The translations under genes and the position numbers were made by a program. From Ignavibacteriales bacterium (GTDB lineage: Bacteria; Bacteroidota; Ignavibacteria; Ignavibacteriales; SURF-24), in assembly GCA_026390815.1 (NCBI GenBank), contig JAPLFH010000015.1, positions 1 through 64,000 of the forward strand: DNA of 64,000 bases, written 5' to 3'. Position 1 is the first letter of the stretch, and each line of letters starts with the position of its first letter. Below the pieces are notes generated by a model. It had not been told where the DNA came from, ran no database searches, and saw only the letters and a list, made by a program, of their open reading frames with translations. Positions 22,628-24,626 of the stretch are shown here, piece after piece.

Positions 22628-23005
22628 CCGTTTTGCTGAAATTGATTTTAGCAGAGAGGGAATTAGTATTTGCTTTAAAGGGATAAATATTTTCTATTAT
22701 GAAAAGAAGATTGACAATGCAAGAAATAATATTAACAGAAGAGAAAAAGAGATTTACATAAAAGAAAATGAAATTTACACTGAAGAAAAATCGAATGACA
22801 GTATGGAAAAATTGAATTACAGCGACGAAAACCCGAGTTACGATGTAGAATTTGGCGGTTGCATTTGCCGAATTGACAATTACATAAACGAAAAATAGAG
22901 TTACACTGATGAAAAGAGCAGTTACATTGACGAAAAGCACATTTACATTGAAGGAAAACGTAATTACATCAACGAAAAATGGAGTTACAAAGCAGAAAAT
23001 GCGAA
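22628..23005. repeat. Array 2 of degenerate repeats with exact 21-bp period
   Basis: TTACA-like pentamers stand exactly 21 bp apart, with no slip, at 22754, 22775, 22796, 22817, 22838, 22859, 22880, 22901, 22922, 22943, 22964 and 22985. The same phase extends back through 22733, 22712, 22691, 22670 and 22649. A typical unit is AGTTACATTGACGAAAAG plus three bases. Alignment with array 1 (318-695) shows a common skeleton, AGTT-x2-A-x-TT-x2-GAAA-x-G, in the same register. About 17-18 units are present. The array is followed by the DUF559 insertion unit and then by the paralogue of the gene that follows array 1. Confidence 0.85.
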
Positions 23006-23020
23006 AACAGAAGAAAAAAC

Positions 23021-23104
23021 AAACCCTACCTGTTTCCTCCCCCCTGCCTACTGCAGGCAGGTTTAATTAAAGGGGAGGATAAGGAGGGGTTCGATAAAAT
23101 ATAA
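23021..23104. repeat. Left direct repeat flanking DUF559 gene
   Basis: AACCCTACCTGTTTCCTCCCC, then GCCTACTGCAGGCAGG, then GGGGAGG and AGGAGGGGTT. The outer parts pair with each other and the centre is itself a palindrome, so the unit can fold into a long cruciform. Nearly the same sequence follows the DUF559 gene at 23525-23606. Confidence 0.8.
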
Positions 23105-23135
23105 TGACAACAATGCTAATTTTTAGTAGATACAT

Positions 23136-23525
23136 ATGACTAGACACTACAACAAAAGCACAGAAAAAGAAAAGAGAAGGAGTTTAAGAAATAACTCAAC
23201 GTATGGAGAAAAATTATTGTGGGTGTACATCCGTAAAAGACAAGTATGTGACGAAAGGTTTTTGCGTGAGTATAGCGTAGATAAATATGTGATTGATTTT
23301 TATTGTCCTGATTTACACCTTGCAATAGAAATTGACGGACCGACTCATTTTGAAAATAATGAAGCAATTGAGTATGACAGAAGAAGACAAAGTTATTTGG
23401 AAAATTATAACATTAAATTCCTAAGATATACGGATGATGAAGTAAAAGGAAATTTAGATAAGGTATTAAAGAAAATAGAAGAAGAAGTAATAAAAAGACA
23501 AAAAGAAAAACAAAAAAATAAATGA
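23136..23525 (+). CDS. DUF559-domain (Vsr-like fold) endonuclease-like protein
   Basis: 129 residues. An N-terminal basic stretch (about 1-25, with LRNNSTYGEKLLW) precedes the DUF559 core. The restriction-endonuclease-type residues are visible: DKYVIDFYCPDLHLAIEIDG (about 49-68) carries the Asp and Glu-x-Asp metal ligands, followed by RRRQSYLENYNIKFLRY (about 85-101), with a Lys/Glu-rich C-terminal helix. DUF559 proteins are small predicted nucleases related to very-short-patch repair endonucleases. Here the gene is flanked by ~80-bp direct repeats and lies between the 21-bp array and its gene, suggesting that it arrived as a mobile unit. No transposase is present. Confidence 0.85.
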   Translation: MTRHYNKSTEKEKRRSLRNNSTYGEKLLWVYIRKRQVCDERFLREYSVDKYVIDFYCPDLHLAIEIDGPTHFENNEAIEYDRRRQSYLENYNIKFLRYTDDEVKGNLDKVLKKIEEEVIKRQKEKQKNK

Positions 23526-23606
23526 ACCCCACCTGTCTCCTCCCCCTTGCCTACTGCAGGCAGGTTTGACTAAAGGGGAGGAAAGGAAGGAGGGGTTTAA
23601 TAAACA
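23525..23606. repeat. Right direct repeat flanking DUF559 gene
   Basis: AACCCCACCTGTCTCCTCCCC, GCCTACTGCAGGCAGG and GGGGAGGAAAGG...AGGGGTTTAAT repeat the left copy (23021-23104) with few differences and in the same orientation. The left edge overlaps the stop codon of the nuclease gene. About 504 bp separate the equivalent points of the two copies. Confidence 0.8.
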
Positions 23607-23635
23607 ATATAAATAATCACAAGAGAGAGGTTACT

Positions 23636-24340
23636 ATGAACAGGCGACAATTAAACAAAAAGCGGATGTACTTTGCTGTTAACGGTACTTTAAAAGATAA
23701 TTCTGTTATTGTTGATGCAAAGGTGAAATTAAAGGAATATCATCAAAAGCTGCAGAGTAAATTAACAGAGCTTGATAAAGCAGAGGTAATAATAAATAAG
23801 GCTGCTGCAGGCGTAACTAAAACTAAGAATGATCTTAAGCTTGAGCTTATAAAAACATTCCTGCCGTTAAAAGCAGTATTAAATTCCTATGGAACGGAAA
23901 AGAAAAGGAACGATATACTTGCATTAGTAAAGATATCTGAATCGGATCTAAAAAAAATGAATGATACACAATTAACTGGCAGGATAAGTTCTGTGCTTGT
24001 GGCTGCTAAAGAAGTATTAACGGAACTTGCGGATTATGAAATTGACGCGGATGTAATAACCGGAATACAGTCTGCATCCGATTTATTTAGCGGTGCAATT
24101 GATAAAATGGGTGGAGGAGAGTCGCAGGAATCCAGCGCAAGAGATGAGGTTGATAAATTATTTGATGAGATAGATGAAATATTAAATGAGCACCTTGATA
24201 GCTTTGTTGAAATGCTAAGAGAGAAAGAGCCGAATTTTTATAATGCGTATTACTCAGCAAGAGTAATAAAGGATTTAGGCGGAAGCCACGGTGTAGAAGA
24301 GGGAAACAAAACGGTGGAAACGACAACAGATAATAAATGA
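23636..24340 (+). CDS. Unrecognised helical/coiled-coil protein, paralogue of 764-1486
   Basis: 234 residues with no signal peptide or membrane segment; basic N terminus (RRQLNKKRM), helical Lys/Glu/Leu-rich body, and an acidic Thr-rich tail. It is homologous along its length to the 764-1486 protein. Shared points are the N-terminal RMxxxVxGxLKxN, the helix before and after AAxGxT, and the C-terminal block LFDEIDEILNEHLDSF followed by FYNAY, VIKDLGGSH and a degenerate tail. I do not recognise the family. AGAGAGGTTACT precedes the ATG. The 21-bp array upstream, interrupted only by the DUF559 unit, repeats the arrangement seen at the first locus, so array and protein probably work or evolve together. 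Confidence 0.8.
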   Translation: MNRRQLNKKRMYFAVNGTLKDNSVIVDAKVKLKEYHQKLQSKLTELDKAEVIINKAAAGVTKTKNDLKLELIKTFLPLKAVLNSYGTEKKRNDILALVKISESDLKKMNDTQLTGRISSVLVAAKEVLTELADYEIDADVITGIQSASDLFSGAIDKMGGGESQESSARDEVDKLFDEIDEILNEHLDSFVEMLREKEPNFYNAYYSARVIKDLGGSHGVEEGNKTVETTTDNK

Positions 24341-24457
24341 AAGATTGTAAGTGGAGGCAGAAAAAGTTTTATGAAAAATACTAAATTCGAATTTCTAAAT
24401 AACAAACAAATTCAAAATACAAAGTACAAAACTTTCTTGAAGGAGTTTTACAGTTAG

Positions 24458-24626
24458 AGAATTTGCGATTTTGAATTTGTTTAGAGTTTATTATTTCGGA
24501 TTTAGAATTTATATCTAACACACAAATTCTAATACTAAGGCGCAAAACATTTTAGAAATGTTTTTAGAGTTTAGAATTTGCGATTTTGAATTTGTTTAGA
24601 GTTTATTATTTCGGATTTAGAATTTA
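24458..24626. repeat. 54-bp perfect direct repeat pair
   Basis: The sequence starting AGAATTTGCGATTTTGAATT occurs at 24458-24511 and again without change at 24573-24626, 115 bp apart. Between and before the copies lies related AT-rich sequence with repeated AATTC/GAATTT words. It occupies most of the 328-bp gap between the coiled-coil gene and the next lipoprotein gene. It is unlike the 21-bp arrays in sequence and period. Confidence 0.85.

Follow-up and report, generated by a model that had tools for sequence, protein, structure and literature searches.

The window analysed here, i.e., the first 64,000 nucleotides of contig JAPLFH010000015.1 from an Ignavibacteriales bacterium, contains two arrays of tandem repeats with a period of 21 bp. 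Each lies upstream of a gene encoding a member of a protein family that we term family 1. The features of the two loci are as follows:

341–675, + strand: first 21-bp-period array, approximately 15 units, with a single 1-bp phase slip near 487
764–1486, + strand: family 1 helical protein P0001 (240 aa), a paralogue of P0002, modelled with AlphaFold2
22642–23006, + strand: second 21-bp-period tandem array, approximately 17 degenerate units with the core TTACATTGACGAAAA, phase constant
23037–23077, no strand assigned: REP-like palindrome, copy 1 (CTCCCC..TGCCTACTGCAGGCAGG..GGGGAG)
23136–23525, + strand: DUF559 endonuclease-like gene (Pfam PF04480, E = 1.7e-25)
23540–23580, no strand assigned: REP-like palindrome, copy 2, a direct repeat of copy 1
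23636–24340, + strand: family 1 helical protein P0002 (234 aa), all-helical in the AlphaFold2 model
24236–24292, + strand: codons of the conserved motif FYNAYYSARVIKDLGGSHG in the P0002 gene

Chance origin is excluded for both arrays. In the second array (22642–23006), 21 was the best lag, with an identity of 0.64 over 126 bp; none of 1000 dinucleotide shuffles matched this value, the shuffle maximum being 0.53. The first array (341–675) scored 0.79, and again 0/1000 dinucleotide shuffles reached the real value. Identities in the second array at lags of 21, 42, 63, and 84 bp were 0.54, 0.50, 0.53, and 0.53, respectively, i.e., phase is kept over approximately 17 units, and 11 TTACA-like cores fall at exact multiples of 21 bp from 22754 to 22985, nine of them consecutively. 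Lag scores and cores thus agree with the initial annotation, which had counted about 17–18 units without slippage; the slippage that it implied for the first array is the single slip listed above. It had also placed the second array ahead of the homologue's gene. This order is correct, but the two are not directly adjacent, since the DUF559 gene and its bracketing pair of REP-like palindromes separate them. At the matching spot of the paralogue L003 there is one REP and DUF559 is absent, which suggests that the DUF559 gene and one REP copy were probably inserted together between array and gene. Just 3' of the P0002 gene, a separate 115-bp unit with AAATTC/GAATTTG-like words is present in 2.1 copies (24389–24626).

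P0001 and P0002 are homologous (BLASTP E = 2e-19; 25% identity over 218 aa, gap-free). As had been proposed, they are the only two family 1 copies in the window; others are found elsewhere in the genome, which encodes nine in total. The AlphaFold2 models, which rest on six sequences, show P0002 as all-helical (mean pLDDT 82) and P0001 with the same helix layout (mean pLDDT 80). Confidence dips at glycine-bearing positions near 51–60 and 151–170, and therefore the two long helices of the models may in fact be interrupted. We obtained no meaningful family match for family 1 proteins in Pfam, NCBIfam, PHROGs, or PADLOC, no recognisable DNA-binding domain above cut-off in Pfam or NCBIfam, no significant sequence or fold relative in the PDB, and no fold relative in BFVD. 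With a median pI of 6.1 and a net charge of -2.6, the proteins of this family are mildly acidic. Many of the homologues from Bacteroidia carry an extra C-terminal domain that looks beta-rich and was judged by eye to be similar to carboxypeptidase-regulatory or immunoglobulin-like domains.

A census of the source genome (4.5 Mb, 59 contigs) showed that seven of the nine family 1 members have an upstream 21-bp array; the other two, L009 and L010, both belong to a separate branch that lacks arrays. We also scanned 1.16 Mb of this genome (approximately one quarter, read as stretches) for arrays of any period from 10 to 45. All 11 arrays of the 21/42 type adjoined either a family 1 gene or a gene of a second, shorter protein family (family 2), first noticed via an array near a contig end. 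All four family 2 members of this genome have an upstream array. Two 42-bp scan matches with a weak 21-bp signal (L133, 0.31; L139, 0.39) were left out of the array count, as was an apparent 21-bp array at L113, rejected as a run of the 7-mer CTACATT.

The pairing extends well beyond this genome. Stygiobacter sp. RIFOXYC2_FULL_38_25 is the closest relative with a name, which puts the window in or near Ignavibacteriales. Homologues were gathered by protein profile alone and flank periodicity was scored afterwards, with an array called at an identity of at least 0.5; the first profile (A1) was too divergent for a peptide-pattern scan. In the class-level family 1 set, which takes in the source genome's paralogues with arrays and five other-phylum-level matches, the upstream flank had a lag of 21 or 42 bp at 39 of 49 loci (42 of 49 with 1 bp of tolerance either side); no downstream 21/42-bp array occurred at 45 loci. 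Family 1 genes of Bacteroidia had an array upstream in 16/22 cases and downstream in 2/22, and in the array-less branch of the family no upstream array was found (0/18). Across periodic upstream flanks of family 1, the lag was 20, 21, 41, or 42 bp in 59 of 60. Among six family 2 loci in Bacteroidia, four had an upstream array at 21/42 bp, one an upstream array at 43 bp, and one a downstream array. A third family, discovered via its array in the distant genome G422, has the array downstream of the gene in 13/14 cases. Such counts are not fully independent because loci within one genome are paralogues, and the loci counted spread over many families in two classes. The co-occurrence of array and protein across Bacteroidota is secure. 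The functional unit suggested by the initial annotation is strongly supported by this recurrence, which spans three protein families in two classes.

For families 2 and 3, the helical assignment comes from sequence only, and some family 2 members end in what looks by eye like an FN3-like domain. Homology between the three families was not established by hhalign (probabilities of 8% and 0.3%). The module was not found in the phage, plasmid, and viral contig collections searched; homologues sit on genome contigs, some of them chromosome-sized. A Verrucomicrobia homologue (L052, 2668–3402) with approximately 21% identity to P0002 has no clear array, and the pairing may be confined to Bacteroidota. 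The initial annotation had named arrays common genome-wide without the protein as an observation that would speak against it. None of the 11 in the source genome lacks a partner, but two of four in 400 kb of G422 (L174, 18437–18696; L183, 3667–4016) have no recognisable one; these may be orphans or may point to additional partner families.

Beyond their period, the arrays have little in common. Unit sequence varies between loci, even inside one genome, and GC content ranges from approximately 0.19 to 0.70. Units are contiguous, and arrays lie tens to hundreds of bp from the gene. Mean autocorrelation over 39 arrays of unrelated sequence peaked at 21, 42, and 63 only; a half-turn (10–11 bp) or heptamer sub-period gave no peak on average. 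Departures from the step were 20-bp steps (L005, L051, L077, L094) and super-units of 41 bp (L232) and 43 bp (L250). We rejected a coding function, given stops in all sense frames of A1, L012, L078, L142, and L049; the 20-bp steps also count against coding repeats. We do not claim a universal core sequence, the AATG-like signal being weak and its null model not having kept dinucleotides.

RNA structure is ruled out as a common property by the family 1 arrays, in which none was detected (mean z of -0.58 on both strands and about -0.5 in another set). Folding is seen in some family 2 arrays (L253, L255), and family 3 arrays are strongly self-complementary, with a mean z of -9.4, values below -4 in 13/13, and a dyad symmetry of 0.56 vs 0.42 in column-permuted controls. 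At L168 (13459–13800) and related loci, family 3 arrays contain both unit orientations and very stable hairpins at 21-bp or 42-bp steps. Of the 33 family 1 arrays from Ignavibacteria, 30 have a purine-rich coding strand (P = 1.4e-6), a bias that could be a sign of transcription; Bacteroidia do not show it (11/21).

Comparisons between copies showed how far their homology extends. A1 and the C3 copy are homologous over a segment that starts at the array and reaches 14 nt beyond the stop codon; the sequences outside are unrelated. Between L049 and L050, homology runs from approximately 600 bp before the gene to approximately 90 bp past it and includes the array, interrupted by one diverged stretch immediately ahead of the start codon. 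The duplicated segment comprises the array and one gene only. These homologies, spanning both parts, support the earlier suggestion that array and gene duplicate as one unit. Just before the L049 and L050 arrays (approximately 2560–2620), an inverted repeat, TGTGTAAAAGA ... TCTTTTACACA, is conserved and is perhaps the left module boundary. The two arrays align over 268 columns with zero gaps at 87% identity, compared to 69% at the fourfold sites of their genes, which suggests that the arrays are under constraint. We do not claim selection on purine/pyrimidine content from the 28 transitions and 7 transversions in this alignment; the general transition excess is modest (median 1.36-fold).

Local exchange between copies is also possible. 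The stretch encoding the conserved motif (24236–24292) is identical to L003 at 57/57 nt in a gene otherwise 67% identical, as might arise from a local conversion tract or nucleotide-level constraint. Likewise, the otherwise diverged paralogues L027 (2125–2208) and L037 (2119–2202) share 84 nt at 95%. These near-identical 3' ends fall at the junction where other members bear the extra C-terminal domain, and a conversion tract or domain-swap point is possible.

Array and gene appear to constitute one two-part chromosomal module, i.e., a period-21 array coupled to one of three all-helical families. The best explanation, which we favour only tentatively, is that the array is a phased, multi-site platform of double-stranded DNA for the cognate protein. 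Twenty-one bp corresponds to two turns of B-DNA, and the array would present sites aligned along one face of the duplex. There the cognate protein, or a host partner that it recruits, would assemble side by side in many copies to give a multivalent nucleoprotein platform like iterons or a plasmid centromere, on which the extra C-terminal domain of many Bacteroidia members would be displayed. Candidate jobs for such a platform include gene-dose control, segregation, self-propagation, and defence. Double-stranded DNA with sites on one face is favoured because the two-turn step alone is common to the arrays, which vary in structure, strand bias, position, and sequence; with arrays that are non-coding, unstructured in family 1, and symmetric in family 3, a DNA-level period is the only property left to all. 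The location of arrays on either side of the gene speaks against a role as simple leader or promoter. Against a DNA platform stand the lack of a recognised DNA-binding domain, the missing 10–11 bp autocorrelation peak, the off-period steps, and the partnerless G422 arrays. Our confidence is kept low since the mildly acidic proteins and the strand-biased arrays of Ignavibacteria also weigh against it; such acidity does not favour protein binding to the array or to its transcript.

On plasmids, both iterons and par centromeres (parC, tubC) consist of direct repeats, in many systems spaced about two helical turns apart, beside the gene of the protein that binds them: Rep for iterons and an adaptor for the centromeres. 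The present arrays share with iteron-Rep systems direct repeats of approximately two turns (period 21, harmonics 42 and 63) adjoining a gene. In contrast to these systems, the proteins have no initiator (Rep) family match in Pfam or NCBIfam and their all-helical models no significant PDB match; the arrays are chromosomal, with proteins absent from the plasmid and phage collections searched; units are private to each locus, number 10–25, and accompany proteins with no recognised DNA-binding domain; and the duplicated module has no replication or NTPase gene.

The main rival to the DNA platform, possible though doubtful, is that the array acts as RNA. A repetitive transcript, either separate or within an untranslated stretch of the mRNA, would bind, scaffold, or neutralise many copies of the helical protein, as does the RNA of a type III toxin-antitoxin system or an RNA scaffold. 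The adjoining position of arrays on either side of the gene, the purine-rich coding strand in Ignavibacteria, and the folding of family 3 and some family 2 arrays are consistent with this model. It is opposed by the unstructured family 1 arrays, the missing strand bias in Bacteroidia, and the absence of an intrinsic terminator from 39 of 42 array-gene gaps; in addition, Rfam gave no match at the window arrays and an exact 21-nt step has no explanation in terms of single-stranded RNA. Type III toxin-antitoxin loci (ToxIN, AbiQ, CptIN) have tandem repeats of locus-specific sequence shortly before the gene for a small protein, as do families 1 and 2 here. They differ from the present modules, in which family 3 arrays lie downstream, a terminator occurs in only 3/42 gaps, family 1 arrays do not fold, and the fully helical proteins have no ToxN/AbiQ/CptN-type match in Pfam, NCBIfam, or PADLOC.

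It is unlikely, in our judgement, that the module is a selfish mobile cassette bringing the cell no gain, in which the array would be a copying or recombination substrate and the protein would help a host enzyme to spread it. The patchy, multi-copy distribution would fit such an element, as would duplications bounded by the array start and a point just past the stop codon, the near-identical 3' ends of diverged paralogues (A2/L003 and L027/L037), and REP-flanked DUF559 genes beside some modules. However, the module has no transposase or integrase and is absent from the phages, plasmids, and viral contigs searched; terminal inverted repeats or target duplications were not established, and the arrays appear to be under constraint. 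Such a cassette would be compatible with either a DNA or an RNA platform.

Two further explanations fare worse. That the array is solely a cis-regulatory region, with many sites for a third-party regulator of the neighbouring gene, would suit the position of most family 1 and 2 arrays 20–400 bp upstream of the start codon; we consider it improbable, since arrays lie downstream in family 3 and at occasional loci of families 1 and 2, and a search for a Bacteroidota sense promoter motif between array and gene gave nothing consistent. Moreover, units differ between paralogues of one genome, so a single regulator could not read all arrays. Ordinary minisatellite slippage without function might account for some nearly perfect, probably recently expanded arrays (L073, L078, L081, L247), but is scarcely credible when the period stays constant over hundreds of degenerate units, no other period is enriched beside family 1 genes, and the L049 and L050 arrays align without indels.

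Minisatellites and VNTRs share with these modules tandem repetition and, in some arrays, local homogenisation; they differ in that the module period is fixed at 21 phylum-wide and tied to particular genes. CRISPR loci likewise combine long arrays of short units with dedicated protein genes, but module units are contiguous and degenerate, with no spacers between them, and the partner proteins are not Cas. No match to a defence, phage, or plasmid family was found for the module proteins. The open-access full-text literature contained no description of the module; subscription papers and preprints lay outside this coverage, and a prior description is possible. We regard it as an evenly balanced proposition that these loci form an unrecognised class of Bacteroidota chromosomal module, in which a DNA or RNA array of 21-bp step and a cognate all-helical protein co-diversify and are copied within and between genomes. 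A phylum-wide array-protein pairing without match in the family, structure, and literature resources searched would amount to a novel type of genetic element. It may explain together several abundant hypothetical protein families of Bacteroidota, and it poses a clean question for cultivable relatives: why exactly two helical turns?

The DUF559 gene beside the second module has a counterpart in the source genome. A second stand-alone small DUF559 gene (L120, 11041–11575; C52) is likewise located between directly repeated REP-like palindromes, and both such genes of this genome lie less than 600 bp from a family 1 module. DUF559 matches occurred at four distinct module loci (391 kb with overlaps) vs two in 1.9 Mb of further sequence, where one of the two is the same site as a module match. 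From this arrangement, the REP-DUF559 unit looks like a mobile element.
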